From Chthoniobacterales bacterium (lineage in GTDB: Bacteria > Verrucomicrobiota > Verrucomicrobiia > Chthoniobacterales > UBA6821): a stretch of 64,000 bases of DNA. Position numbers and translations under genes: made by a program. Shown here one piece after another: positions 1,799 through 61,970 of the stretch. Under the pieces are notes generated by a model. It ran no database searches and was not told the DNA's origin. It saw nothing but the letters and a program-made list of their open reading frames with translations. Each line of letters begins with the position of its first letter. The stretch's first letter is position 1. Where the stretch lies: NCBI GenBank assembly GCA_019747895.1, contig JAIEQF010000020.1:1-64000 (forward strand), in the 5' to 3' direction.

Positions 1799-1948
1799 TA
1801 AAACTATTTGATGAATTCTACTGCTGCAGCGCAGGACTGCGTCACGCCGCTGCTCGCGTCATCGAGTGTTTCTATATACACTCAGCCGCTGTGCGCCGTC
1901 GTTCCTTGTCCTGCATCTGCATCAGCGAGTTTCTTAAACAGTTTTTAT
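1799..1948. repeat. Palindromic element, copy A
   Basis: An imperfect palindrome of about 150 bp. The left outer arm AAAACTATTT near 1800 pairs with AAACAGTTTT near 1936-1945, and ACTGCTGCAGCGCAGG pairs with the complement of the CCTGCATCTGCATCAGC segment. The core (GCTCG, ATATACACTC, CTGTGCGCCG) is shared with copies at 5868, 20183, 27318 and 57750. It lies directly after the SRP RNA and may act as its 3' boundary. Confidence 0.75.
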
Positions 1949-2912: not shown

Positions 2913-5293
2913 TTTTCTACCAATGGTACGGTGGTAGAGAATTTCCAATTTCGAATCTCTGGCAAGTCTTCGCCGTGAGTGTTGATGTATTGTTTATGCT
3001 CCACCAATTTGTCTTTGAGCTTTTGCTTCAGATAAATGCCTTTAGTCTCCGTTTGAGGCAGGCGATCAATCGCATTCATGACTAGATGAAAACGATCGAG
3101 TTCGTTTAACACGGTCATGTCAAAAGGGGTCGTGATGGTCCCTTCCTCTTTGTAGCCGTGAACATGGATGTTCTTGTGATTCGTGCGGCGGTAAGTCAAT
3201 CGATGGATGAGCGTGGGATAGCCGTGAAAAGCAAAGATCACAGGCTTATCCTTTGTAAACATATCATCAAAATCGATGTCACTGAGTCCGTGAGGATGTT
3301 CTTTTTGAGGTTGGAGTTTCATTAAGTCAACAATGTTGACGACACGAATTTTTAATTCGGGAAGATGTTCGCGCAAGATGGAGACAGCAGCGAGTGTTTC
3401 GAGTGTGGGTACATCACCGCAGCAAGCCATCACGACGTCGGTCTCTTCATTTTGATCGTTGCTAGCCCATTGCCAGATGCCGATGCCCTCAGTGCAATGT
3501 TTAAGCGCAGCATCCATGGTGAGCCATTGTGGTGAGGGATGTTTTCCTGCGATGATGACGTTGACGTAATGACGGCTCCGCAAACAATGATCCATCACTG
3601 AAAGCAGGCAGTTGGCATCAGGAGGAAGATAAACACGAACAACTTCAGCTTTTTTATTCACCACGTGATCGATGAAGCCAGGATCTTGATGGGTGAAGCC
3701 GTTGTGATCTTGGCGCCAAACATGAGAAGAAAGCAGATAATTCAGCGAAGCAATTTTGCTGCGCCATGGAATCTGCGAGGTTACTTTCAGCCACTTGGCA
3801 TGCTGATTAAACATCGAGTCGATGATGTGGATAAAGGCCTCATAACAGTTGAAGAGTCCATGACGGCCCGTGAGAAGATAACCTTCCAGCCATCCTTCGC
3901 ACTGATGTTCGCTGAGCATTTCCATAATGCGTCCCGTTGGTGCAAGAAATTCATCTTGAGGTATGGTTGTTGCATTCCATTGTCGCTCGGTAACTTCAAA
4001 CGTTGATTCCAAGCCATTGGAAAGCGTTTCGTCAGGGCCAAAAATTCTGAAGTTCTGCTCTGATTCATTCAGCTTGATCACATCGCGTAAGAATTTTCCA
4101 AGAACACGAGTATCTCCAATACCAGGAACTCCTGGCGTTGGCACAGCAACAGCATAATCACAAAAATTAGGCATGCGAAGATCGTGTAACAAGAGGCCAC
4201 CATTGGCGTGAAGATTAGCTCCCATCCGGCGTGTGCCTATTGGAGCAAGCTCTGCGAGTTCTTTGTTCAAGCGACCTTGTTCCTCAAAAAGTTCTTCAGG
4301 TCGATAACTTTTGAGCCATTGTTCTAAAAGCTCTAGATGCCCAGGATGAGTAGCTGGGTCAGAAATAGGAACTTGATGGGACCGAAAGGCTCCTTCGATT
4401 TGATGGCCATCGACAATTTTAGGTCCTGTCCATCCTTTGGGAGAATTTAAAATAATCATGGGCCAATGAGGTCTGGTTTTATTTCCATGAACCCGAGCTT
4501 CCTCTTGAATTTTTTTTATCTCTTCAATTGCACCATCGAGCGTTGAAGCCATAGCTTCATGCATGAGCGTAGGATCGTGACCTTCGACAAAATAAGGGGT
4601 CCAGCCGTAGCCTTCAAATAATTTTTTTAATTCTTCCTGAGGGATGCGCGCGAGAATGGTTGGATTAGCAATTTTATAACCATTGAGGTGCAAAATCGGC
4701 AACACGGCACCATCAGTGACTGGATTGAGAAACTTGTTAGAATGCCACGCCGTTGCAAGCGCCCCCGTTTCTGCTTCTCCATCTCCAACAACACAACTGA
4801 CAATCAAATTAGGATTGTCTAAAACAGCGCCAAACGAATGGCTGAGTGAATAGCCGAGTTCTCCTCCTTCGTGGATAGAACCTGGACATTCAGGTGATGC
4901 ATGACTTGGAATCCCACCAGGAAAAGAAAATTGAAGAAAGAGTTTTTGCAAGCCTTCCTCATCTTGGGTGATGTTGGGATAAATCTCGCTGTAGGTTCCT
5001 TCCAAGTAAGTGTTACTGACAACAGCAGGTCCGCCATGTCCCGGTCCAGAGACGTAGATCATGTCGAGGTCATATTTTTTAATGACACGATTGAGGTGTG
5101 CATAAATAAAATTTTGTCCCGGCGTTGTTCCCCAATGACCCAGTAGCATTTTTTTGATATCAGTCAATGCTAGCGGGCGCTTGAGCAGGGGATTGTCGCG
5201 AAGATAAATTTGGCCAACCGAGAGATAGTTGGCTGCACGCCAGTAGGCATCGATGTTGTGGAGCTGTTCCGACGTTAGGGTTTTTGTTTTCAT
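2894..5293 (-). CDS. xfp: Xylulose-5-phosphate/fructose-6-phosphate phosphoketolase
   Basis: A thiamine-diphosphate enzyme that cleaves xylulose 5-phosphate (and often fructose 6-phosphate) with phosphate to acetyl phosphate plus glyceraldehyde 3-phosphate or erythrose 4-phosphate. The 799-residue length is standard. Family signatures seen are GPGHGGPA (83-90), the TPP/Mg motif GDGEAETG (170-177) and a C-terminal block with [14 protein letters not shown]. Its ATG overlaps the ackA stop by 4 bp (ATGA), so the two genes are translationally coupled and together convert sugar phosphate to acetate with ATP gain. The last residues (VMSNG) and stop are encoded by a CTCATTA repeat arm. Substrate range cannot be read from the sequence. 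Confidence 0.96.
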
Positions 5294-6624
5294 AAAAAAG
5301 GAATGACAGATTTTGCTAGCATCAGCTCTTCATCGGTCGGTATCACACGAACTGTAACATGAGACTCTTCCGATGAAACAACCGATTCGTTTTTTTGATT
5401 TTTTTCTTCATCAAGTTCGATGCCTAAGAAAGCAAGTCCGTCACAGATGCGTTGACGAATCGAGGGAGCGTGTTCGCCGATGCCTCCTGTAAAGATCAAA
5501 GTGTCGAGTCCATCAAGTGCTGCAGCAAAGGAACCAATTTGTTTTTTTATTTGATAACAAAAAAGTTCAATGGCCTCTGCTGCACGAACATCTTTTTTTT
5601 CAATGGCCAAAAGATCGCGGAGATCAGAGCTAGTTTCGGAAATTCCCAGGAGTCCCGATTTTTTATTAACCATCTCTTGAAATTGTTCTGTTGTCATCTG
5701 TTCGGTCTGTGCAAGAAAGGAGCTGAGTTCTGGATCAAGGTCACCAGAACGAGTTCCCATCATGATTCCTGATGTTGGAGAGAACCCCATGCTGGTGTCA
5801 ATCGACTTGCCATGATAAACAGCAGTGAGGCTAGCGCCGTTGCCTAGATGAGCGATGATAATTTTTCCTTGAGACCGCTTCCCAAACTTTACTGCTGACG
5901 CGGATAGCTGTGTCGCGCCGGTGCTCGCCTCGTCGAGTATTCTCTTATACACTCCTCGTCTGTGCGCCGTCGCTTCTTGCTCTCCATCGTCATCAGCTAG
6001 TTTTGAAAGTGGTCTTTCGATAAGACGTTCGAGGCTTTCTAGCTCTTGGAGAAGAAAGGAACAGGACAAGCCATGAAATCCATAACGGCGTACCCCCTTG
6101 GCTTCATAGCAGCGTGGGATCGGCAAGAGCTGAGCGACTCGTGGGAGATCCTGATGGAAGGCGGTATCAAAACAAGCGATTTGAGGAAGTTTTAGAAACT
6201 CTTGCTGTAATTTTTCTATGAGCAAAACTTCCATCGGAAGATGATCCGGATCAAAGGCACTCAGGCGGTGTAACTCTTGCAGCATTTCCGTAGTGATCTG
6301 TTCAGGCTGATAATACCTGGTTCCGCCGTGTACGATGCGATGAGCGATGGCAGTTACTGCAGTACATTTTTTGTTATCCTTGATCCAAGAAATCAGAATG
6401 TTGATGGCAGCTGTGGAATCAGTTGCTTGAACCACGTGTGAAAAATTTTCTTCCGGATGATTTCCTTTAACAAAAAAAATAGCTTCAGGAAATCCTATGC
6501 GATCAATGCCGCCTTGGAAGAGCCGCTGAGGGTTGCTGTGTGTGTCACGAGAAGCTTCAAAGAGCGCAAACTTAATGCTCGAAGAGCCACCATTGATCGT
6601 CAAAATATGTGGCGGCGTTTTCAT
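5290..6624 (-). CDS. ackA: Acetate kinase with an in-frame repeat insertion
   Basis: Acetate kinase makes ATP and acetate from acetyl phosphate. Family blocks are present: NGGSSSIKF near the N-terminus, [38 protein letters not shown] and FTGGIGEH. At 444 residues it is longer than the usual ~400. The surplus lies at about residues 201-252, between RRYGFHG and HLGNG, exactly where palindromic repeat copy B (5868-6023) sits. The frame stays open through the insert. All catalytic motifs are intact on both sides, so the enzyme is probably active with an extra loop. It is first in an operon with xfp. No SD is visible; TACGAT lies 6 nt before the ATG. Confidence 0.95.
5868..6023. repeat. Palindromic element, copy B, inside ackA
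   Basis: The core matches copies A, C, D and E (GTGCTCG, CTTATACACTC, CTGTGCGCCG, CATCAGC). The outer arms GAGACCGCTTCC (about 5872) and GAAAGTGGTCTTTC (about 6004-6018) are inverted with few mismatches. The measured span is about 156 bp, a multiple of three, and translates without a stop as part of AckA. Confidence 0.8.
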
Positions 6625-10215: not shown

Positions 10216-10412
10216 GAAAATTAACCACGAAAGAATGCAAGACAAAGAAAAAAATAGCCACAAAAGAACACAAAGAGCGCAAAAAAGAAATAACATCAAA
10301 CTTGCTGGTTGAAGCTCTGGCTTCATTTTAAAATAACTCAGCTTGTCAATTTGAGAGAGCGAGTTGCCGCTAGTTTTTTTCCTTTGTGCTCTTTTGTGGC
10401 TATTCCTCTTTT
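10216..10412. repeat. ACAAAGA-type inverted pair
   Basis: The left arm (about 10216-10287) contains AATTAACCACGAAAGAATGC and ATAGCCACAAAAGAACACAA. The right arm (10376-10412) contains CCTTTGTGCTCTTTTGTGGC and TATT. It lies between nrdR and tRNA-Asp. Confidence 0.75.
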
Positions 10413-19622: not shown

Positions 19623-20186
19623 ATGCCTCTCGCTCCTAAAGATCAATGGTTCGTCGTTCATGTCCTCTCCGGTTTCGAGCAGAAGGTGCATGACAATATT
19701 CTCAAGCGCGTTAAATCTGAAGAATTAGGCGATTGTATTTTTGAGGTTTTAATTCCAACCGAGCGCGTTCAAGAAATTAAACGCGGTAAAAAAACAGAGA
19801 CCACGCGTAAATTTTTTCCAGGCTATATCATCATTAATATGCATCTTTTTGATGAGAATGATAAATTGGTTGACAAAACCTGGTACTTTATCAAGGAGAC
19901 CAATGGCGTTATCGGTTTTGCTGGAACAAAAGATCGCCCTGTTCCAATGCGTCCTAAAGAAGTTTCAGGAATGCTTGCTCAAATGAAAGAGCGTGAAGAG
20001 AACATTACGCAAAAAATTATTTTTGAAGTTGGAGACAAAGTTAAAGTCGCTGATGGACCTTTCCAAAATCAACAAGGCATTGTTGAGGAAGTCGACCCAG
20101 AACGTGGTAAACTGCGTGTTTCGGTTAGTATTTTCGGTCGCGAGACGCCGGTGGAGCTGGAGTATTGGCAAGTGGAAAAAGCCTAG
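19623..20186 (+). CDS. nusG: Transcription termination/antitermination protein NusG
   Basis: NusG binds RNA polymerase, couples it to the ribosome (NusE) or to Rho. The 187-residue protein has the NGN domain (WFVVHVLSGFEQKVHDNI; FFPGYIIINM; GVIGFAGTKDRPVPM) and the C-terminal KOW domain (FEVGDKVKVADGPFQNQQG to ETPVELEYWQVEKA). Length is normal. In most bacteria rplK-rplA follow nusG; here a palindromic element and recJ follow instead. Confidence 0.97.
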   Translation: MPLAPKDQWFVVHVLSGFEQKVHDNILKRVKSEELGDCIFEVLIPTERVQEIKRGKKTETTRKFFPGYIIINMHLFDENDKLVDKTWYFIKETNGVIGFAGTKDRPVPMRPKEVSGMLAQMKEREENITQKIIFEVGDKVKVADGPFQNQQGIVEEVDPERGKLRVSVSIFGRETPVELEYWQVEKA

Positions 20187-20348
20187 AAGCTATTTGAAGT
20201 TCTACTGAGCGAGCGAATAGCTGCGTTACTTCGGTGCTCGTCGCTTCACGTATTACATATACGCTCAGCGCTTGTGCTCCGAGGTGCCTTGCTCTTCATC
20301 ACGCTCAGCGAATTTGAAACAGCTTCTATCACATTCCAATCGTCTCAG
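20183..20348. repeat. Palindromic element, copy C
   Basis: The outer arms TAGAAGCTATTTGAAGTTCT (20184-20203) and the complementary arm ending GAAACAGCTTCTAT (to about 20339) pair nearly throughout. The core (TGCGTTACTTCGGTGCTCG, CATATACGCTC, TGTGCTCCGAGG) is almost identical to copy D. It begins at the nusG stop and fills most of the nusG-recJ gap. Confidence 0.8.
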
Positions 20349-22149: not shown

Positions 22150-22672
22150 ATGAGCTTCATGAAAATTGCTTTTGTCCAAAGTTGAAAGGTTGAGCCGCTG
22201 CTCAAGCAGCTGTTGAGCGCCGCTAGCGCGGCTGTTGAGAAGAATCTACCCCCTCAAAAAAACCTTTGGTAAAAGATTTTTTTTGTACAATCCAGCCTTC
22301 TGGACGAATACTTAGTAGATACGTTTTCTAATTCAAAGTGGAGGCGAGGGTCGGAATCGAACCGACGAATGGGGCTTTTGCAGAGCCCAGCCTTACCACT
22401 TGGCTACCCCGCCATGAAAGATGATGACTCTAGCAGCATTTATCGTGTGATACAAGTGAAGATAAGAAATAACACGCTTTTATTATGTGTTTAAAATAAC
22501 AGCGTGATTTAAACTAAGAATACTTATTGCTACGAGTAGAAGTGAAATGTTTGAAGCGTTAAAAAAGAATGGTCTCTTCTCAACAGCTGTGCTAGCGGCG
22601 CTCAAAACCTGCTTGAGCAGTGGCTCCACCTTTCAACTTTCGACAAGAGCAGTTTTGTGAACCTCATTCTTG
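22150..22672. repeat. About 100-bp inverted repeats flanking tRNA-Cys
   Basis: The left arm (about 22150-22252) and right arm (about 22568-22672, inverted) share AAAGTTGAAAGGT, GAGCC, CTGCTCAAGCAG, TTGAGCGCCGCTAGC and GCTGTTGAGAAGA, in order, with roughly one difference in six. They enclose tRNA-Cys and about 300 bp of AT-rich DNA without a gene. No transposase frame is present, so a MITE-like origin is possible. Confidence 0.75.
22339..22413 (-). tRNA. tRNA-Cys (GCA)
   Basis: Minus-strand cloverleaf: acceptor GGCGGGG with GG-pairing CCTCGCC, short D arm, anticodon stem GGGCT/AGCCC with loop CTGCAAA (anticodon GCA). Discriminator T and encoded CCA (22339-22341). Confidence 0.95.
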
Positions 22673-27319: not shown

Positions 27320-27541
27320 ATTTCATTTGTAAATGCTACTAAGATGGCGAATCGCTGCGTTACTTCGGTGCTCGCCTCGTCACGTATTGCATATACCCTC
27401 CTCCGCTGTGCTCCGAGGCGCCTTGCGCTTTATGCAACTCGCTCGCTCCCGCGAGGCTCGCCCTGCGGGCTGCCTTCAGCAGTCGATCCGGCGGCTGCCA
27501 CGCCGCACGTATTCCTCTCAGCGCATTTCCAAACGAAATTC
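27318..27541. repeat. Palindromic element, copy D, carrying a nested insertion
   Basis: The outer arms AAATTTCATTTGTAAATGCT (27317-27336) and GCGCATTTCCAAACGAAATT (to 27540) are inverted. The core is nearly identical to copy C through CTCCGAGGCGCCTTGCGCTTTATGC. The right half is interrupted at about 27438-27518 by the GC-rich repeat also seen at 600-690. The open frames through it are repeat-derived and not called genes. Confidence 0.75.
27438..27518 (+). repeat. GC-rich dispersed repeat, copy 2, nested in copy D
   Basis: Matches the minus strand of 600-690 (CTCCCGCGAGGCT, GGGCTGCCTTCAGCAGTC, GCGGCTGCCACGCCGCA). Its presence inside the otherwise continuous palindrome D indicates it inserted later. 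Confidence 0.65.
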
Positions 27542-29697: not shown

Positions 29698-29813
29698 AGC
29701 TGCTTTGCAGCTAAAAATAAAAGTTAATGGCCACAAAGAACACAAAGAAACCAAAAATTTTAAAAAAAATCTCTTAGCTCTTTGATTTCTTTGTGTTCTT
29801 TGTGGCTATTTTT
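29698..29813. repeat. Mini-hairpin and ACAAAGA-type inverted pair
   Basis: AGCTGC-TTT-GCAGCT (29698-29712) precedes a left arm GGCCACAAAGAACACAAAGA (29729) and the inverted right arm TTTCTTTGTGTTCTTTGTGG (to about 29809). The hairpin would be long and nearly perfect. Confidence 0.75.
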
Positions 29814-29827
29814 TTTATTCTTTGTTT

Positions 29828-30277
29828 ATGAAATCAGTTCTTTTTGTCTGTACCGGAAATACCTGTCGTAGTCCGATGGCGGAAGCTCTTTTGGAAAAAA
29901 TACTTCCTCAGTATTCAAAAATAAAAGTCGCTTCTGCAGGAGTTCAAGCAACTCCCGGTCTTCCTGCAAGTACTATGACATTGAAGGTTCTTGCGGAAGA
30001 GGGAATTAGTTTCACTCGTTTTCAAAGCCAAGTAGTGACGCCTGAGCTAATCGCTCATGCGACTTATGTTTTTGCCATGACGCAACAACATCGTGATTTT
30101 TTAATACGTCACTATCCTCGCCATCAAGAGAAAGTTTTTTTACTGACCGAATGGACGACGCAAGAAGACCTTCTCGACCCGATTGGAGGAAGCTTTCAAG
30201 ACTATCAAGAGTGTAGTGAGGTGATAAAATCTTGTTTAGAAAAAATAGTTCCTTTTATTCAAGGTGAGGTTGAGTGA
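29828..30277 (+). CDS. Low-molecular-weight protein-tyrosine phosphatase family protein
   Basis: About 149 residues. The P-loop C-x5-R-S is at the N-terminus ([16 protein letters not shown]), and the catalytic Asp loop is [13 protein letters not shown] near residue 120. This family includes YwlE-type arginine phosphatases; the Thr in CTGNTCR is the hallmark residue linked to arginine-phosphate preference in YwlE, so that activity is plausible. The frame opens at a TTG (29822) but the ATG at 29828 is preferred. It is followed after 10 bp by glyA, so the two form an operon, an order seen in several bacteria. Confidence 0.9.
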
Positions 30278-39042: not shown

Positions 39043-39150
39043 TAAGTTTGAGTATTTCTAGTTTGAGTTTGAGTGCAATAGGCGCTTCGCGTTTGTTATG
39101 ATAAAGCGAAGCCTAGCTAACTCAAACTCAAACTAGAAATACTCAAACTT
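39043..39150. repeat. CAAACT-type inverted pair, copy 1
   Basis: Arms AGTTTGAGTATTTCTAGTTT (from 39046) and its exact complement (to about 39149) form a perfect stem of nearly 30 bp. The spacer contains GATAAAGCGAAGCCTAG, also found with changes in the element at 43788, so the two are copies of one element. Confidence 0.85.
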
Positions 39151-39223
39151 TCGTCGCTCTACGATAAGTTAACTTCTTTTTTTGAACATCATACCAAAAT
39201 CCTCTTAACTTAGTACCGCTCTG

Positions 39224-40287: not shown

Positions 40288-40405
40288 AAATGCATGAGCC
40301 ACAAAGAACCCAAAGAAATCAAAAAGAAATTTTTTATAAAAAATTTCTAGAAATTCAAGAGAGCCTTTTTCTTTGATTCCTTTGGGTTCTTTGTGGCTAT
40401 TCTCT
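40288..40405. repeat. ACAAAGA-type inverted pair at the coaX 3' end
   Basis: The left arm AGCCACAAAGAACCCAAAGA (40290) and right arm TTTGGGTTCTTTGTGGCT (to about 40398) are inverted. The right arm encodes the C-terminal tail of CoaX. Confidence 0.75.
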
Positions 40406-41198
40406 TTTTTTCCTGACTGCCGACAGTCCGACACCCCACTTCGCGAATCCCTTCGAGTGTTAAGTTAAGATCGATATGATCAAAAAGTTTTTCTTTGCCA
40501 GCGACCAGTTGAGCATCGGTTCCTGTGCCAATAAGGAGAGGACGTTTTCCAGAAAAATTTTCCTTCGTAATTTGTTCAACCACTTCTCTAACAAGTCCAC
40601 GAGCACCAAGAAGTAATCCGGAGTGAATAGCTGTTAATGTATTTTTCCCAAGTGCACGTCGTATCGGTGAGGGGATAGCTAGAGGAAGTAATGCTGTCCG
40701 TTCGTGAAGGGCTTTTGATGAAGTCAAAAGCCCCGGAGCAATGATGCCGCCTAGATAAGCGCCATATTGATCAATGATGTCAAAGACAATGGCTGTTCCA
40801 AAATTAGCAACAATGCAAGGGGCCGGATAACGGTTTTTAACCGCAACAACATTAACCAGGCGATCAGATCCAATGGAGCTAGGGTTGGGATAGCGAATCT
40901 TTATTCCAAGGTCGGTCATGGCATCGATGCAGAGCAATGGAACTTTCTTTTTTTTGCAAAAGCGAGTGATGAGTTGTTTGGCCTTTGGCACTACTGAAGC
41001 AATGATGACTCGTTGCACCGACCATCCCTCGATGATCGTGTTCAATGATTCAAGCGAGAGTTCTGTTGTTGCCAGGCGCCGTGTTGCAAGAATGCGGTGA
41101 GGTGTTGTCAGCGCAAACTTGCAAGTGGTATTGCTCAGATCAGCAACAAGCCATCTTTCATCAGAGGCGAGGTTGTTTGTAAAGTTAATGGCCTTCAT
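40347..41198 (-). CDS. coaX: Type III pantothenate kinase
   Basis: CoaX phosphorylates pantothenate, the first step of CoA synthesis. The ASKHA-fold blocks are LVADLSNTTCKFAL (phosphate-1), PNPSSIGSDRLVNVVA, NFGTAIVFDIID and GGIIAPGLLTSSKALHERTALLP. About 283 residues from MKAINFTNN at 41198; the frame runs 24 codons further upstream, but that sequence is repeat-derived. The final 20-odd residues (rich in Lys; RIATKNPKESKKKALLNF) are encoded by an ACAAAGA repeat arm, beyond the usual family end. A CoaB-like ligase is 6 kb away. Confidence 0.92.
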   Translation of the reverse strand: MKAINFTNNLASDERWLVADLSNTTCKFALTTPHRILATRRLATTELSLESLNTIIEGWSVQRVIIASVVPKAKQLITRFCKKKKVPLLCIDAMTDLGIKIRYPNPSSIGSDRLVNVVAVKNRYPAPCIVANFGTAIVFDIIDQYGAYLGGIIAPGLLTSSKALHERTALLPLAIPSPIRRALGKNTLTAIHSGLLLGARGLVREVVEQITKENFSGKRPLLIGTGTDAQLVAGKEKLFDHIDLNLTLEGIREVGCRTVGSQEKKRIATKNPKESKKKALLNF

Positions 41199-43769: not shown

Positions 43770-43787
43770 TTATTTGTAATGCGATGA

Positions 43788-43896
43788 AAGTTTGAGTGCT
43801 AGAAGTTTGAGTTTGAGTTTAATTCGCGCTGCGCGCTTGTGATTATAGCAAAGTGAAGCCTAGATAACTCAAACTCAAACTCAAACTTCAATCTGA
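43788..43896. repeat. CAAACT-type inverted pair, copy 2
   Basis: The left arm GAAGTTTGAGTTTGAGTTT (43810) and right arm AACTCAAACTCAAACTCAAA (43866) are inverted. The spacer shares GCGCTTGTGATTATAGCAAA and GTGAAGCCTAGATAACTC with the element at 39043, allowing for changes. Confidence 0.8.
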
Positions 43897-46897: not shown

Positions 46898-46979
46898 TGC
46901 TCGGGGAGGGACTCGAACCCTCATGGATTGCTCCACTAGATCCTAAGTCTAGCGCGTCTGCCAATTTCGCCACCCGAGC
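46898..46979 (-). tRNA. tRNA-Leu (UAG)
   Basis: Minus-strand class II tRNA of 82 nt: acceptor GCTCGGG/CCCGAGC, anticodon stem CTAGA/TCTAG with loop CTTAGGA (anticodon TAG), variable arm TGGAGCAATCCA, discriminator A. CCA is not encoded. Confidence 0.95.
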
Positions 46980-46982
46980 GAG

Positions 46983-47128
46983 AGAGAAGAAAATAGCCGC
47001 AAAAGCACGCAAAGAACACAAAAAAATATAATTTTTCTTCTAGTCCTTATCCCCGCGAAGGAGGGGGTCCAGTCTTCAACCTGCAAATAAGCCCTTGTCC
47101 CCGCGAAGGCGGGGATGTAACCTGCGCA
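46983..47128. repeat. ACAAAGA arm plus CG-rich mini-hairpins
   Basis: ATAGCCGCAAAAGCACGCAA and AGAACACAAAAAAA (about 46993-47027) are followed by two GC hairpin units around CCCCGCGAAGG (47051 and 47101; the second is CCCCGC-GAAG-GCGGGG) and heptamer-like CAACCTGC/TAACCTGC words. Similar hairpin units occur at 7329 and 61912. Confidence 0.65.
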
Positions 47129-47786: not shown

Positions 47787-49713
47787 TGAGTTGATCCCAG
47801 CGACTGCTTTTGAGTTCACATTTTTCCAAGATGGAAGAAAGTTGGCGATTCAGTTGAAAAGCATTGCTGCTGCCATAAGAAGCTGGATCAGCCAAAGTGC
47901 TTTCGAGCTGCTTTTTTTCTGTTTCTAAAGCCGCAATTTCCTCTTCAAGTGTTGCGATCTCTTTTTCAAGATCACGTCGCACTTTGTTGGCGGCCTTACG
48001 GAGTTCAGCTTCCGCTTTACGCATTGCTTTAATTTCTTTGAGGCCCATCTTGGGAGCCGCAGCGACTGATTCTACCTTGTTCTGTGGTTGATGATTGCTC
48101 AATGGCTGCGCATTACCCGGAGCAACAAGAGCTGCTTTTTCAGAAGTTGCTCCTGATTTTTCGAGGTAATAATCGTAGTCGCCTGCATAAGGAGTTATTT
48201 TTCCAGCATTGATATGCAGAACGCTTGTCGCAGAGGCTTTGATAAAATGGACATCGTGGCTGACAAAGAACAATGTTCCATCATATTGCTTGAGGGCACC
48301 GATGAGGGCATCGATACTCGGCATATCAAGGTGAGTTGTCGGTTCATCTAGGAGTAGAAAATTGGGAGGGTCGAGCAAGAGTTTGACGAGGGCTAAACGG
48401 CTTTTTTCTCCTCCACTCAAAACGCCCACCGGTTTGAAAACATCTTCTCCACTAAAAAGGAAAGAACCGAGAATGGTTCGGGCCATTTGTTCTGGTACTG
48501 GCTTGGCAATGCTCATGGCTTCGGCAAGAACTGTTCGTTTAACATCCATCATTTCGGTTCGATGCTGCGCAAAATAACCAATGGAGGCGTTGTGGCCATG
48601 CTCATAAGTTCCTGCTTCGAGCGGCAACATGCCTGCTAAAATTTTGAGCAGAGTGGATTTGCCTGCACCATTCGGGCCAACAAGGACAGTGCGTTGACCA
48701 CGCTCCACTTCAAGATTCAGATTTTCATAAACGACATGATTGCCGTAAGCCTGCTTGACTCCGGTAAGTCGAGCCACTCGTTGTCCGCTACGTTGTGGTT
48801 GAGGAAATTTAAAATGAACCGTTGATTCGGCGCGTTCTGGTGCCTCAATGCGCACCATGCGAGCGAGTTGTTTAATGCGATCTTGAGCTTGAGATGCTTT
48901 GCTAGCCTTGGCGCGGAAACGATCAATGAAACGTTGCAGTTCGGCAATTTCACGTTGTTGGCTTTTATAAGCAGCGAGTTGCTGTTCCTCACGAGCCGCT
49001 TTTTGTTCTAAGAAAGAATCGTAATTGCCGTTGTAATGATGAAGTTTCCGATGGCGGATTTGAATCATCGATTCACAAATGGCATTGAGGAATTCTCGAT
49101 CGTGGGAGATGGCGAGAATAGCACCACTGTAGTTCATGAGATGATTTTGAAACCAACCAAGTGATTCGAGATCGAGATGGTTTGTCGGCTCATCAAGCAT
49201 GAGGAGATCTGGCTCCATAACGAGAAGGCGAGCCAAATGCGCTCGCATAATCCATCCACCACTCATGGTGCGTGCCATGCGATTGAAATCAGTTTCGCGA
49301 AAAGCGAGACCACTTAAAATTCGTTTTGCTTTTGCTTCGAGGGCATAGCCATTATTTTCTGCAAAGAGCGCCTGTGCCTCTTGATGAACCATATCATCTT
49401 CATCGGGATGATTCCGGAACATCGTATAAACTTCTTCCATTTCAGGATTAATACTGCAGGCTAATTCTAAAATGGTTTCATCTCCTGAAGTTGCATTTTC
49501 CTGGGGGAGATAGCCAATTTTGACATTACGCTCCAGAGCAATAGTGCCTGAATCGGGAGAAGCCTCTTTGAGGATGAGAGAAAAAAGAGTCGACTTGCCA
49601 GCGCCATTAGCACCGATGAGGCCGATACGATTGCCGCGATTGACTTGAAGCGAGGCCTCTTCAAAGAGGGCATGCCCTCCGAAGGATTTTGAGAGATTAG
49701 AAGCAGTTAACAT
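47722..49713 (-). CDS. ABC-F family ribosome-associated ATPase
   Basis: A soluble protein of about 663 residues with two ABC domains: Walker A GLIGANGAGKST and LVGPNGAGKST, signatures TMSGGWIMRAHLARLL and VLSGGEKSRLALVKLL, and Walker B LLMLDEPTNHLD and FLLLDEPTTHLD. The inter-domain linker (FLEQKAAREEQQLAAYKSQQ and following) and a C-terminal coiled coil (KELRKAANKVRRDLEKEIATLEEE-type region) fit the Uup/YheS/EttA group, which acts on ribosomes. The frame reaches 49791, but the first 26 codons are repeat sequence, so MLTASNLSKSFG (49713) is chosen. A resistance role is possible but not indicated. Confidence 0.93.
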   Translation of the reverse strand: MLTASNLSKSFGGHALFEEASLQVNRGNRIGLIGANGAGKSTLFSLILKEASPDSGTIALERNVKIGYLPQENATSGDETILELACSINPEMEEVYTMFRNHPDEDDMVHQEAQALFAENNGYALEAKAKRILSGLAFRETDFNRMARTMSGGWIMRAHLARLLVMEPDLLMLDEPTNHLDLESLGWFQNHLMNYSGAILAISHDREFLNAICESMIQIRHRKLHHYNGNYDSFLEQKAAREEQQLAAYKSQQREIAELQRFIDRFRAKASKASQAQDRIKQLARMVRIEAPERAESTVHFKFPQPQRSGQRVARLTGVKQAYGNHVVYENLNLEVERGQRTVLVGPNGAGKSTLLKILAGMLPLEAGTYEHGHNASIGYFAQHRTEMMDVKRTVLAEAMSIAKPVPEQMARTILGSFLFSGEDVFKPVGVLSGGEKSRLALVKLLLDPPNFLLLDEPTTHLDMPSIDALIGALKQYDGTLFFVSHDVHFIKASATSVLHINAGKITPYAGDYDYYLEKSGATSEKAALVAPGNAQPLSNHQPQNKVESVAAAPKMGLKEIKAMRKAEAELRKAANKVRRDLEKEIATLEEEIAALETEKKQLESTLADPASYGSSNAFQLNRQLSSILEKCELKSSRWDQLTTEFAAKYPEATSQESEQALS

Positions 49714-49727
49714 GAAAAAAGGAATGA

Positions 49728-49858
49728 GAGAATAGCCGCAAAAGAGCAGAAAGCAAGGAAGAGAATAGCCACAAAAGAACACAAAGATCACAAAGAAATA
49801 TTGCCCATGGCTCCTTTTTTCTTTTGTGATCTTTGTGATCTTTTGTGGCTATTTCTTT
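49728..49858. repeat. ACAAAGA-type inverted pair
   Basis: The left arm (49732-49798, ATAGCCGCAAAAGAGCAGAA and ATAGCCACAAAAGAACACAA) and right arm (49814-49856, TTTTGTGATCTTTGTGATCT and TTTGTGGCTATTTC) form a nearly perfect stem-loop between the CYTH gene and the ABC-F gene. Confidence 0.8.
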
Positions 49859-52898: not shown

Positions 52899-54201
52899 AA
52901 TAATTTTTTGAGATCCATTCCAGCGCCTCTTCGCGAGTGGTGATCAAATTTTCAAGCTGAGCATCTTTGACGGTTTGTAAAACTTTTCCAAATTGAGGTC
53001 CTGGCGTCATGCCAAGCGCGATCAAGTCCTGGCCCGTCACGAGGGGAGGTGGAATGAGCGGCATGTTGGCGAACTCTTCTTTTTTTTCTTGGAGCAATTC
53101 GTAATTGTCGAGCATGCCATGGCTCGAAGCGCAATCGACACGATGCAGTTCCAGTTCATCTTCGAATGTGGGACGTGCCATCAGGCGACGCAAGGTTGAA
53201 AGGCGCATTTTCTGTACATCTTTGAAGCTCATGTGCAGCCGCACAGCAGGGATCACCGCCTCTATGATCTCGTTGGAAAAACGAAGGCGGTGTAAAATTT
53301 TTTCTGCCATTCTTGCTCCGACTTGATCATGAGCGTAGAAGCGCATTCGACCATTTTCATCAACCGTTCGTGTTGCCGGTTTGCCAATGTCGTGAAACAA
53401 AACGGAAAGCACCAATGGCAACGACACTTTTTCAGGAAGCATTTCTAACATCAGGCGTGTGTGTACGAAGACATCGCCTTCAGGATGAAACTCAGGAGGC
53501 TGCTCGCATCCTTTAAGGTTTTCAAGTTCCGGTAAAATTTTCTTCAAGAGACCGCTCTGGTCCAAAAGATCAAAGCCACGCAAGCGATGAGGACTAAGAA
53601 AAATTTTCTGTAACTCATCGCGAATCCGTTCAGCGCTGACAGCATGAATCTCCGGTGCCAGTTCGCAGAGAGCTTTCCAGGTCGTTGGATCAATTTCAAA
53701 ACCGAGTGTCGTCGCAAAACGAACCGCACGAAGGAGGCGCAATTTGTCTTCTGTAAAACGCTCCTGCGGATTGCCGATAGCGCGAATCATTTTTTTGGAA
53801 AGATCTTCGCGCCCCGTTACATAATCAAAAACTTCTTTTGTAATTGGATCATAAAAAAGGCCGTTGATCGTGAAGTCGCGTCGCTTGGCATCCTCTTCAG
53901 CATTGGTAAAAGTAACATTGGTAGGATGGCGACCATCGCAATAACTTCCATCGTGACGAAAAGTGGCCACTTGAATTTCGGCATGTTCTTCCAAGACAAC
54001 AATGACTCCAAATTGTGCTCCGACCGCAATCGTGCGTGAAAATAATTTTTCAATCTGCTCGGGCAAAGCATCTGTTGCAATGTCGTAATCATGGGGCTCC
54101 AGGCCTAACAACATGTCGCGAACACAACCTCCTGCAAAATAGGCCGTGTGGCCGGCATCGCGGAGTTTTTGAAGAACGGAAGTAGCAGAGGATAAAATCA
54201 T
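52879..54201 (-). CDS. cca: CCA-adding tRNA nucleotidyltransferase / poly(A) polymerase family
   Basis: About 440 residues. The class II nucleotidyltransferase head has AYFAGGCVRDMLLG and DYDIATDA, followed by RRDFTINGLFYDP and the RNA-binding block RLLRAVRFATTLGFEID, then an HD domain (VLFHDIGKPATR, DQVGARMAEKIL). Most of the tRNAs here lack encoded CCA, so the activity is needed. The start MILSSATSVLQKL (54201) is preferred; the 24 upstream codons are repeat sequence. Confidence 0.94.
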   Translation of the reverse strand: MILSSATSVLQKLRDAGHTAYFAGGCVRDMLLGLEPHDYDIATDALPEQIEKLFSRTIAVGAQFGVIVVLEEHAEIQVATFRHDGSYCDGRHPTNVTFTNAEEDAKRRDFTINGLFYDPITKEVFDYVTGREDLSKKMIRAIGNPQERFTEDKLRLLRAVRFATTLGFEIDPTTWKALCELAPEIHAVSAERIRDELQKIFLSPHRLRGFDLLDQSGLLKKILPELENLKGCEQPPEFHPEGDVFVHTRLMLEMLPEKVSLPLVLSVLFHDIGKPATRTVDENGRMRFYAHDQVGARMAEKILHRLRFSNEIIEAVIPAVRLHMSFKDVQKMRLSTLRRLMARPTFEDELELHRVDCASSHGMLDNYELLQEKKEEFANMPLIPPPLVTGQDLIALGMTPGPQFGKVLQTVKDAQLENLITTREEALEWISKNYFTASEQ

Positions 54202-54204
54202 AAA

Positions 54205-54722
54205 AGAGGAACAAGGAATAGCCACAAAAGAACACAAAGAGCACAAAGAATTAGAAAAAACTAAGGCCTTCATAAGAGTGCTCGTGCAGTGCTATGGGAG
54301 CCATAGTAAATTTTTTTATCTGAAACTTATAACTACCAAAATTGATTAACAACCCATTTTCGATTTTTATTGCTTTAAGATAGCCTAAAATTTGTGACGA
54401 GTGTTCAGCAGTTATTGTCTGACATGCTTTAAGCTCCACAATCAAACTATCTTCTATTAGTACATCAGCAAAATATTCACCAACTAATGTTCCATCTTCA
54501 TCATAAACGCTTATGGGATGTTGTTGACTTATTCTAAGTCCAGCCTTTTGTAGTCTGTGTACAAGCGTATTCTCATAAACTTTTTCTAAATGACCATGTC
54601 CAAGATAGAGATGAATAGCATAAGCAATTTTTCTTACGATATCTGAGAGTTCATTAGGTGTTTTCATTTTTGTGCTCTTTGTGTTCTTTTGTGGCTATTT
54701 CTTTTTTCTTTTGTGGTTAATT
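54205..54722. repeat. ACAAAGA-type arms flanking the GxxExxY gene
   Basis: The left arm (54210-54250, AATAGCCACAAAAGAACACA with AGAGCACAAAGAATT) and right arm (54669-54722, TTGTGCTCTTTGTGTTCTTT with TGTGGCTATTTC) are inverted and enclose exactly the gene at 54251-54667. In the other copies such arms enclose only a short spacer. Confidence 0.75.
54251..54667 (-). CDS. GxxExxY protein
   Basis: A 138-residue member of the GxxExxY family: LGHGHLEKVYENTLVHRL (the naming motif), VGEYFADVLIEDSLIVELKA (a PD-(D/E)xK-like nuclease core with D-x-x-I-x-x-ELK), and YLKAIKIENGLLINFG. The fold suggests a restriction-endonuclease-like nuclease, but no biochemical role is established to my knowledge. The gene is framed by inverted ACAAAGA arms, which supply its first and last bases, suggesting it arrived as a unit. 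Confidence 0.88.
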   Translation of the reverse strand: MKTPNELSDIVRKIAYAIHLYLGHGHLEKVYENTLVHRLQKAGLRISQQHPISVYDEDGTLVGEYFADVLIEDSLIVELKACQTITAEHSSQILGYLKAIKIENGLLINFGSYKFQIKKFTMAPIALHEHSYEGLSFF

Positions 54723-56892: not shown

Positions 56893-57750
56893 ATGTCCAT
56901 CGAAGATACTGATCCCAGCTTGCAGCGTTATTTGAAGGAAGTTTCTCAATACCCTTTGATTTCTCCTAAACGAGAAATTGAATTATCTGTTCTTATCAAA
57001 AAAGGAGATAAGGAAGCCATTGCAGAAATGACACGTTCTAATCTTCGTTTGGTGATTAAGATTGCTCGCGAATATGCTAATTTAGGATTGCCGCTTTTAG
57101 ATCTTATTTCCGAGGGGAACATTGGTCTCCTTAAAGCAGTAAAGCGATTTGATCCTTCAAAAGGTGGAAAGATGAGTACCTATGGTTCCTGGTGGATTAA
57201 ACAAGCGATTAAGAGAGCTCTTGCCAATCAAAGTAAAACAATTCGCTTGCCGATTCATCTCATTGATAAAATTGCTAAGATTCGTCGTGTTAGTGAGAGT
57301 ATGAGTGAGGCTCTTGGGCGTGAGGCTACGAATGACGAGATTGCCGAAGAAATTGGGCTCAATGCTGCAAAGGTAGCACAGCTTAAAGAAATAGCTTGTC
57401 GCCCAACATCCTTGGATGCTCCGTTAGGAGAAGATAACGACATGGAGTTTTCTGAAACGATTTGTGATGAAAGTGCGATTGATCCTTTTTGCACGCTTCG
57501 TGAAAAAGATATGTACGGTCAATTGACTGATCTTCTTGAAAATTTGGATGAACGTGAACGCTCTATCATTAGTAATCGATTTGGCCTTGATGGTTTAGAG
57601 CCTATTACCTTAGAAGAAGTTGGTGCTAAGATGGGCGTGACTCGTGAACGTATTCGGCAATTGCAAAATAATGCGCTCAATAAAATGCGTCGAGCTTTCC
57701 GAGGAAAAGAGGTTGTTACCTTTTCCTCATTTATGACAGCAACAGCCTAG
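56893..57750 (+). CDS. RNA polymerase sigma-70 family factor (group 2/RpoD-like)
   Basis: A 285-residue sigma factor with region 1.2 (DPSLQRYLKEVSQYPLISPKREIEL), a complete region 2 (NLRLVIKIAREYANLGLPLLDLISEGNIGLLKAVKRFD and STYGSWWIKQAI), region 3 and region 4 (LEEVGAKMGVTRERIRQLQNNALNKMR). It lacks the long region 1.1 and non-conserved region of a typical primary sigma, so it looks like a group 2 (RpoS-like) or short primary-type factor. Region 2.4 is close to the RpoD sequence, so it should read -10 boxes of TATAAT type. It is preceded by a long stem-loop. Confidence 0.9.
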   Translation: MSIEDTDPSLQRYLKEVSQYPLISPKREIELSVLIKKGDKEAIAEMTRSNLRLVIKIAREYANLGLPLLDLISEGNIGLLKAVKRFDPSKGGKMSTYGSWWIKQAIKRALANQSKTIRLPIHLIDKIAKIRRVSESMSEALGREATNDEIAEEIGLNAAKVAQLKEIACRPTSLDAPLGEDNDMEFSETICDESAIDPFCTLREKDMYGQLTDLLENLDERERSIISNRFGLDGLEPITLEEVGAKMGVTRERIRQLQNNALNKMRRAFRGKEVVTFSSFMTATA

Positions 57751-57894
57751 AGTCTGTTCAAATGCTACTGCTATGACGCAGGGCAGCGTTGCGTCGGTGC
57801 TCGACTCGTAGAGTATTACGATATACGCTCCTCGTCTGTGCGCCGCCGCTCCTTGTCCTGCATCCATAGTAGCGAATTTTAACGAGACTCTCGA
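57750..57894. repeat. Palindromic element, copy E
   Basis: The outer arms AGAGTCTGTTCAAATGCTAC (57750) and GTAGCGAATTTTAACGAGAC (to about 57889) are inverted, and ACTGCTATGACGCAGG pairs with CCTGCATCCATAGTAG. The core matches copies A and B (CTCGACTCG, GATATACGCTCCTCGTCTGT, GCGCCG). It begins at the sigma stop codon. Confidence 0.8.
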
Positions 57895-59634: not shown

Positions 59635-61850
59635 CTTTTTGCCTTCAGCCTGCTGAAGAGCCCCCCATAACGAAAACGCGTCGAGGCATTGTGAACGGCT
59701 GTTGTGAATGCTTTTTTTTGCCCTAGCAGCATCACAAGGCTACGACCGCGTGTGAGGCCGGTGTAGAGGAGGTTGCGTTGCAATAGCAGATACTGCTGCA
59801 TCGCAAGAGGCATGACGACGACAGGAAATTCAGAGCCTTGGCTTTTGTGAATCGTGATAGCGTAGGCAAGGGTGAGTTCATCAAGTTCAGAAAAATCATA
59901 AACGACCTTGCGCACATCAAAGTGCACCGTGAGATTTTTTTCCGCAATGTTGATCGTCTTAATGCGACCGATGTCGCCATTGAAAACTTCTTTGTCGTAA
60001 TTGTTGCTAGTTTGCAGAACTTTATCTCCTTCACGAAATACAGTCCCATAAGCTGAAGTCTCTGTGCGATGCTGCTGTGGCGGGTTCAGGCATGCCTGGA
60101 GTTTGAGATTCAATTCGCCAATGCCAAGCGTCCCTCTATGCATCGGTGCCAAGACTTGAATATCCATGATCGGATCAACGCCAAGACGCTTTGGAATGCG
60201 GTCGCGGACGATGGTGAGGAGTGTGGATAAAATTTCTTCTGGTTCTTCACGTTCCAAAAAGAAGAAGTCGTTTGAGGCACTCTCACTGCCTGGTTCTGGC
60301 AACGTTGGAAGTCTTCCTTCATTAATAGCATGAGCTGCTTCAATAATTTGACTTCCTCCTGACTGTCTAAAAATTTCTTTCAAATGAACTACTGGCACCA
60401 CACCGCTTCGAATGATATCGGGCAAAACAAGACCTGGTCCAACACTTGGCAGCTGATCGACATCGCCAACAAGAATCAGTCGTGCTGTGGGAGGATGTGC
60501 CAGGAGGAGGCGACTCATGAGCGGGACGTCGACCATTGACGTTTCATCCACAACGAGAACGTCTGTCTCCAAAGGATTGTCGACATCGCGCTGGAAGCGT
60601 CCTTTCGCAGGCAAGAATTCTAAAAGCCGATGAATTGTTTTTGCTTCGAGTTGCGTTGCCTCGCTCAGGCGCTGAGCGGCGCGGCCGGTTGGAGCGGTCA
60701 AGAGGCAGCGGAGTTTTTTGGCTCGCAAAATCATCAAGAGCGATTGCACGAGGGTTGTTTTTCCAACGCCAGGGCCTCCTGTGATAACGACGATCCGATG
60801 TCCCAATGCTATGCGGAGCGCCTCGCGTTGACTGTGAGACAAAGTTCGGCCTGTTTTTTGTTCCACCCACGGAATCGCTTTATCAGGATCAATAAAAGGA
60901 GTCGGAGCCGCAGCATCGGCGAGATGATGGAGGCGGCTTGCAATGATCTCTTCGGCGACGCGAAGATGAGGAAGAAAAATTAATTCTTTGCCTCCGATGC
61001 GCTCGAGCGTGACGCGTTGATCGTGAAGATGGCGTTCGAGGGCTTGCTCAACAATATTTTCTCCTACCTCCAGGAGACGAAGGGCTGCCTGGATTAACTC
61101 CTCGCGAGGCAAGGCACAATGACCTTCTCCGGTTGCTTCCGTCAAGAGATGATCAATGGCACCTCGCGCGCGCAAGAGTGAATCTTGCTCAAACCCTAAC
61201 TTCATCGCCACTGCATCTGCAGAATGAAATCCGATGCCATGAATGTCGCGAGCCAGCGTGTAAGGATTGGCGCGAATGATGGCGACCGCATCTTCTCCAT
61301 AAGTTTTATAAATGCGAGCAGCGCGGTTGGTGCTGACACCATGAGCGTGAAGAAAAAGCATGATGTCGCGAACAACCTTTTGTTCTGCCCAAGCTTCTTT
61401 GATGCGCTGGCGACGCTCGCGGCCGATTCCATCAACCTCTTCGAGGCGCTTGGATTGATATTCAATAATATCAAAAACTTGTTCGCCAAATTTTTTGACG
61501 AGCTTGGTGGCATAGACAGGACCGATGCCTTTGATGAGGCCGCTTCCTAAATATTTTTCAATTCCTTCGAGTGAGGTGGGAGGTTGTGTCTTGAGCGTGC
61601 GTGCCTTCATTTGAAGGCCATGATCTTTATCTCGCTGCCATGTGCCTTGCGCCGTGATCCATTCTCCTGGCGTTACTGCAGGAAGTGTGCCAACGACACA
61701 GACAAGCTCGCGATGGCCTTCGGCTTGAACTTTTAAAACGCAAAATCCATTTTCAGGATTATGAAACGTTACCCGCTCTACAAGCCCGCTGAGCGCATCT
61801 TCTGGACCTCCTGGGGTAATGTTAGGTTGACGCGAAGAGCGGGATTTCAT
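59631..61850 (-). CDS. recD2: RecD2-type ATP-dependent 5'-3' DNA helicase
   Basis: A 739-residue SF1B helicase that works without RecBC. It has the RecD2-specific N-terminal extension with helix-hairpin-helix region (GSGLIKGIGPVYATKLVKKFG; RLEEVDGIGRERRQRI), motif I GGPGVGKTTLVQSL, motif II VLVVDETSMVDVPL, motif III VGDVDQLPSVGPG, and motifs V-VI with YAITIHKSQGSEFPVV and YTGLTRGR. Length is normal. Together with recJ it belongs to the repair set of the window. Its upstream gap holds ACAAAGA and CG-hairpin repeats. Confidence 0.96.
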   Translation of the reverse strand: MKSRSSRQPNITPGGPEDALSGLVERVTFHNPENGFCVLKVQAEGHRELVCVVGTLPAVTPGEWITAQGTWQRDKDHGLQMKARTLKTQPPTSLEGIEKYLGSGLIKGIGPVYATKLVKKFGEQVFDIIEYQSKRLEEVDGIGRERRQRIKEAWAEQKVVRDIMLFLHAHGVSTNRAARIYKTYGEDAVAIIRANPYTLARDIHGIGFHSADAVAMKLGFEQDSLLRARGAIDHLLTEATGEGHCALPREELIQAALRLLEVGENIVEQALERHLHDQRVTLERIGGKELIFLPHLRVAEEIIASRLHHLADAAAPTPFIDPDKAIPWVEQKTGRTLSHSQREALRIALGHRIVVITGGPGVGKTTLVQSLLMILRAKKLRCLLTAPTGRAAQRLSEATQLEAKTIHRLLEFLPAKGRFQRDVDNPLETDVLVVDETSMVDVPLMSRLLLAHPPTARLILVGDVDQLPSVGPGLVLPDIIRSGVVPVVHLKEIFRQSGGSQIIEAAHAINEGRLPTLPEPGSESASNDFFFLEREEPEEILSTLLTIVRDRIPKRLGVDPIMDIQVLAPMHRGTLGIGELNLKLQACLNPPQQHRTETSAYGTVFREGDKVLQTSNNYDKEVFNGDIGRIKTINIAEKNLTVHFDVRKVVYDFSELDELTLAYAITIHKSQGSEFPVVVMPLAMQQYLLLQRNLLYTGLTRGRSLVMLLGQKKAFTTAVHNASTRFRYGGLFSRLKAKS

Positions 61851-61860
61851 GACTGAGAAT

Positions 61861-61970
61861 TAAGAAAATAGCCACAAAAGAACACAAAGAGCACAAAAAA
61901 ATAAAAAAATAACGTCATTCCCGCAAACACGGAAAGGAACTACATTCCTGCGAAGGCAGGAACCAGAAGA
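61861..61970. repeat. ACAAAGA arm and CG-rich hairpin unit
   Basis: ATAGCCACAAAAGAACACAA then AGAGCACAAAAAAA (61868-61903). Next comes a unit TCATTCCCGCAAACACGG (61915) with ATTCCTGCGAAGGCAGGAA (61944), resembling the hairpins at 7329 and 47043. The inverted partner of the first arm is not obvious here. Confidence 0.6.

Follow-up and report, generated by a model that had tools for sequence, protein, structure and literature searches.

The acetate kinase gene of a Chthoniobacterales bacterium carries, between two conserved stretches of its coding sequence, a copy of a palindromic repeat that a preliminary description had noted between genes at four other places, and the locus thus raises the question of how such a repeat can lie inside a protein-coding gene and leave it open. 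We followed the repeat through the window, the whole 64-kb (64,000 nt) stretch of DNA that was analyzed, and through the genome it comes from (G000), a draft of 2.06 Mb in 55 contigs most closely related, among named genomes, to metagenome-derived Verrucomicrobia; the genomes compared with it are likewise drafts from metagenomes. All four of the other copies were found in the window, one of them partial. The host gene and the copies are as follows:

5290-6624, minus strand: ackA, acetate kinase, the host gene read through the element (TIGR00016, E 3e-114)
5873-6014, minus strand: palindromic element inside ackA (142-nt model match; cmsearch 142.8 bits, E 4e-34)
1802-1943, minus strand: extragenic copy immediately following the plus-strand gene for the small SRP RNA (1703-1797; RF00169) (cmsearch 130.5 bits)
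20186-20326, minus strand: copy outside genes; a 226-codon plus-strand open frame ends 1 nt inside its edge (cmsearch 100.7 bits)
27345-27436, minus strand: partial copy, next to which lies a 65-nt mini-hairpin (cmsearch 52.2 bits)
57750-57890, minus strand: copy outside genes; a 291-codon plus-strand open frame ends 1 nt inside its edge (cmsearch 112.8 bits)

Other repeats are also present in the window. An A-rich dispersed repeat (ATAGCCACAAAAGAACACAAAGA..) occurs in both orientations at 10222-10286, 29707-29828, 40370-40410, and 46961-47025, with further copies at 49700-49858, 54186-54250, 54654-54712, and 61836-61912. Other long inverted or dispersed repeats lie at 22162-22243 and 22575-22656 and at 39044-39162 and 43776-43847; among them are an 82-nt pair that is 89% complementary and a AAGTTTGAGT-type repeat.

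The 444-residue AckA matches the acetate kinase profile (NCBIfam) in two separate stretches. Its segment from FHGLS through GNGAS comprises 83 residues, as compared to 33-36 in aligned relatives. The ackA DNA of the closest relative, G005, is that of JAPLTJ010000029.1 (a Verrucomicrobia metagenome genome from Lake Pavin) and is 85-86% identical to that of G000; its product lacks 47 of the insert residues between FHGLS and GNGAS, and the insert is absent from all 43 AckA relatives aligned. These comparisons bear out the excess of about 50 residues over the family given in the preliminary description, which had also allowed that all relatives might carry the same residues; none of those aligned does. 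The extra residues coincide with the palindromic repeat, and the span proposed earlier, 5868-6023, is a fair outer boundary around the model match. A structure prediction for the whole protein (AlphaFold2, 44 sequences; pLDDT 86, pTM 0.84) has a TM-score of ∼0.87, by target length, to solved acetate kinases, consistent with an intact fold. Because residues 201-250 have pLDDT values <50 and are flanked by a helix (185-202) and a strand (254-260), we read the insert as a predicted disordered excursion from a loop, in line with the surface position that the preliminary description had suggested be looked for.

The element is self-complementary and 142-147 bp long, within the size range of Rickettsia palindromic elements (RPEs, about 100-150 bp). 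The fold energy of the ackA copy is -55.2, which is 4.7 standard deviations lower than that of shuffled sequences (-37.1 ± 3.8), and compensatory changes on both sides are seen in 30 of the 48 consensus pairs across 28 copies. The sequence of the outermost arms varies from copy to copy, with self-complementarity kept within each. Aligning filled and empty sites with a one-gap model gives an inserted length of 147 nt, or 49 codons, for most clean pairs and of 144, 141, or 138 nt for others. Insertion likely duplicates 1-3 target bases, the exact extent of which (1-3 nt) cannot be fixed because the ends are palindromic. An 81-nt extension of the left arm occurs twice at the same internal position, at L005:1421-1501 (in LpxL) and at L334:1501-1581 (in a diverged element), suggesting that a longer variant moved as a unit; an independent nested insertion in LpxL was rejected on the same grounds.

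A second family, a ∼65-nt repeat of several small hairpins with the motif GCCC..GGGCGAG, has at least 29 copies in the genome, and such hairpins lie in frame inside some of the large elements, for example in TsaC of G005 and in a beta-lactamase-family gene. Copies of this family include the following:

27448-27507 of the window, minus strand: 87% identity to the family query
606-669 of the window, plus strand: 83% identity to the family query
L312:1574-1638, L261:1229-1292, and L262:1277-1338: further ∼65-nt hairpin copies

G000 contains at least 75 copies of the large element in its 2.06 Mb, 67 of which were located first. A covariance-model search gave at least 55 scored candidates each in G000 and G005; the four other members of the genus gave 51, 15, 11, and 7. 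The sister genus gave weak and shorter matches only, and 144 other genomes drawn from the phylum gave none at E ≤ 1e-8. Rfam holds no family for the element, no DNA match was obtained in plasmid and phage collections, and the peptide profile, run against solved structures, returned chance matches only. Viral carriers were considered and rejected, as the single pattern hit in IMG/VR was not matched by the model and a scan with the peptide alignment gave no confirmed relative. The ATP/ADP translocase, a marker of an intracellular lifestyle, was also searched for without a match, but the control genomes gave none either.

A search for the palindrome inside other open reading frames of the genome, as proposed in the preliminary description, revealed many in-gene copies: 29 of the 67 located copies in G000 (∼40%) are embedded in long open frames and flanked by coding sequence on either side, and the two best-sampled genomes have about 28 and 25 copies within unrelated, mostly housekeeping genes. 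The hosts in G000 include RibD, RsmE, TsaC, asparagine synthase, Rho/CoaE (two copies), PEP carboxylase, homoserine dehydrogenase, pyruvate/indolepyruvate decarboxylase, PriA, a penicillin-binding protein, YjeF, PurD, triosephosphate isomerase, MiaB, TatD, HrpB, and AckA, with a phosphohexomutase and a beta-lactamase-family protein added later; UvrA is probably a host as well. Those in G005 include SecA, leucyl- and methionyl-tRNA synthetase, aconitase, TGT, NuoG, DnaX, HolA, and a carbohydrate phosphorylase. In many hosts, the profile of the host family matches on both sides of the insert. The dephospho-CoA kinase and Rho genes form one continuous frame in this genus, also where the element is missing (L259, G005:C23). 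A CoaE-Rho gene fusion made by the element was accordingly rejected, since the fusion is present and element-free in G005.

The in-gene copies obey narrow rules of length and frame. The same 142-nt model span is found in 28 of the 29 in-gene copies of G000 versus 13 of the 38 others (p 1e-7), and in 23 of 26 in-gene copies versus 7 of 33 others in G005 and other relatives (p 2e-7). Among the 28 standard-length in-gene copies of G000, which were recognized by their open frame so that openness is partly built into their definition, direction A is read in frame A1 in 11 and direction B in frame B0 in 17, and no other frame is used. The ackA copy, with its whole insertion at about 5868-6023, is read in direction A, frame A1. 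The peptides encoded in directions A and B are unrelated to each other, and the two strands are used about equally. A few copies of 140-141 nt use a third frame, the clearest being in an open reading frame with a UvrA interaction domain. Of 11 candidates for breakage in mid-gene, all with open frames on both sides, ten were examined; in these, the upstream frame ended no more than ∼10 nt from the element edge, and none breaks a gene in the middle.

Stop codons and other lengths are present in copies other than the standard in-gene ones. The extragenic copies of G000 adjoin the 3′ end of an open frame ≥100 codons long in 31 of 38 cases, as compared to 13% of random positions, and the stop codon of the adjoining gene usually falls between -2 and +3 nt of the element edge. 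By eye, several extragenic copies start with the TAG that terminates the gene, and a FabI-like gene retains its usual terminal residues and ends three bases before the element. At three intergenic spots (L023/L199, window 20186/L168, and window 1802/L176), the two sister genomes carry clearly different variants at the same place (72-87% identical), which would fit reuse of sites or replacement of copies.

To see whether the in-gene sites are filled elsewhere, the joined flanks of the 28 in-gene copies of G000 were searched in genomes of the same genus, and contiguous matches were read by the author. In G005, 20 of the 24 decidable sites are empty and 4 are filled; of the four sites that are undecidable there, three are empty in G002. 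The reverse test with 22 G005 copies found all 19 decidable sites empty in G000. The empty site in PriA is 96% identical at the protein level. Such clean empty sites in sister species indicate that the element was recently mobile. Where in-gene copies are shared, their amino acids are largely retained. Three shared in-gene copies (L013/L200, L027/L172, and L022/L215) have dS values of 0.00, 0.05, and 0.15, versus 0.47, 0.43, and 1.28 for their host genes, and the MiaB copy is identical between species at 47 of 49 residues; shared extragenic copies give a mixed picture (66% to 99% identical). The near-invariant silent sites, seen in few cases, suggest that the DNA or RNA is constrained or that copies are homogenized.

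We are confident that these observations reflect a family of active elements that we call RPE1-like: small, non-autonomous palindromes that code for protein and insert in frame. A palindrome of ∼147 bp with self-complementary ends would insert at many sites. As 49 whole codons are added and each strand has one stop-free frame, translation could run straight through an insertion in the right phase; the host protein would gain a 49-residue, probably disordered loop, which even essential proteins could tolerate. Conservation of the frame suggests that the insert is indeed translated as part of the host protein. In any other phase, the reading frame would run into a stop codon immediately, and such insertions would persist only at the 3′ ends of genes. 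The element would then spread by being harmless, as selfish DNA, rather than by serving the host protein. Its movement would rely on an enzyme supplied in trans; no transposase linked to the element and no parent transposon were found in the genome.

The preliminary description had compared this behavior to that of RPEs, a likeness upheld by the in-frame copies in unrelated genes and the empty sites in relatives, and had noted that both the organism and the core sequence appear to differ. The organism does, being a member of the Verrucomicrobia. The view of a different core is probably wrong in part, because the type-A peptide matches the RPE1 profile (TIGR01045, NCBIfam) over its whole length: the consensus does so with an E value of 6e-5 at positions 1-48 of 48. 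Individually, 12 of the 21 type-A copies match, the best at 3.3e-7 and 30.2 bits over 48/48 positions, which is just above the curated cutoff of 30 bits; the other 11 matching copies are below it, with 27.7 bits for the RibD copy and 17.1 bits for the AckA copy. Ten shuffled peptides gave no match to the profile, nor did the type-B peptides of the opposite strand, and the 21 type-A peptides have no strong match to any other family. An approximate RPE1 peptide used as a query had no match in plasmids or solved structures.

Because the length, the ends, and the frame are the same, common descent is likely, and the peptide comparison suggests that the element is probably homologous to RPE1 of Rickettsia, i.e., a relative of it in another phylum. 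On balance, we lean toward RPE1-type coding palindromes having crossed phyla, by horizontal movement between Rickettsiales and a Verrucomicrobia lineage, with recent multiplication in essential genes in frame and with either strand coding. Convergence, in which coding palindromes arose independently in Verrucomicrobia, act in the same way, and owe their motif to the constraints on any coding palindrome, is possible but on the doubtful side. It would account for RPE1 scores that lie mostly below the cutoff, for a family otherwise confined to one genus, and for the lack of a DNA match in plasmid and phage collections; it accounts less readily for an end-to-end match in the same frame and with the same ends, for the copy that exceeds the curated cutoff, and for the specificity of the match, given the shuffled peptides and the lack of another strongly matching family.

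Two explanations that dispense with a tolerated selfish insert fare far worse. The insert might be removed before the mature protein is made, by an intron-like excision from the mRNA or by ribosome hopping (translational bypassing), as might be imagined from so strong a hairpin (-55 kcal/mol) within essential genes and from shared copies that are more conserved than host silent sites, a possible sign that RNA structure is constrained. Under removal, however, neither a length that is a multiple of three nor the absence of stops would matter, yet the 28 standard-length copies of G000 keep the frame, while stops and other lengths do occur in other copies; the near-equal use of both strands is also unexpected for a single excision signal, and we regard removal as highly improbable. 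We give equally little credence to functional domains selected in their hosts as regulatory loops or interaction modules, since, despite the good retention of amino acids in shared copies such as that in MiaB, the same peptide occurs in unrelated proteins, two unrelated peptides serve about equally often, most sites are empty in sister species, and the AckA insert is predicted to be disordered.

Read as a tolerated, in-frame selfish insert, the element extends a phenomenon so far described from Rickettsia and Wolbachia, with Verrucomicrobia as the second phylum; our survey of open-access papers found no report of such elements from Verrucomicrobia. In Rickettsia, most genic insertions are common to species, which makes the mode of movement and the neutrality of the elements hard to settle there. 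Here, sister species differ at nearly every site, so insertion points, ends, rules of tolerance, and effects on the enzymes can be read from filled and empty pairs. If the relationship to RPE1 is true, this would be selfish DNA whose survival depends on its translation and which travels between phyla.

Rickettsia palindromic elements were reportedly described by Ogata in 2000 and 2002, work summarized in PMC10969869 and PMC3767692, and Wolbachia palindromic elements by Ogata in 2005. Among other small repeats, REP elements mobilized by RAYT (Y1 transposases) are likewise palindromes at the 3′ ends of genes, and the genome has two Y1_Tnp genes. At 147 bp, the element is, however, four to seven times longer than the usual REP length of 20-40 bp (PMC3733652). 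Neither Y1_Tnp locus has a copy in it or nearby, so that these transposases are not supported as mobilizers. MITEs and ERIC/BOX-type repeats with open frames (PMC10969869) are also small, non-autonomous, and built of inverted repeats, with occasional in-frame fusions, but in-frame insertion in genes is the exception there and accounts for ∼40% of copies here. WPE-like inserts in Wolbachia lie in frame in addA, addB, and priA (PMC4224334); they share with our element the palindromic, in-frame insertion into core genes without premature stops, and priA as a host, although the organism differs and the likeness noted here is one of behavior. Closest are the RPEs. One report describes them as ∼150 bp elements located in frame within genes of Rickettsia conorii and its relatives (PMC10969869); according to another, every sequenced Rickettsia and Wolbachia species has them, and their genic insertions are mostly common to species (PMC3767692). 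Like these, the element is a palindrome of ∼150 bp with many dispersed copies, found in frame in unrelated genes, including housekeeping genes, and like RPE1, it encodes a type-A peptide that matches the profile end to end, a likeness seen at the level of the peptide. Unlike RPEs, it resides in Verrucomicrobia instead of Rickettsiales, is coding about equally on either strand, and has most of its sites empty in sister species, so that insertion is recent; its extragenic copies abut stop codons, and some copies harbor a second hairpin.
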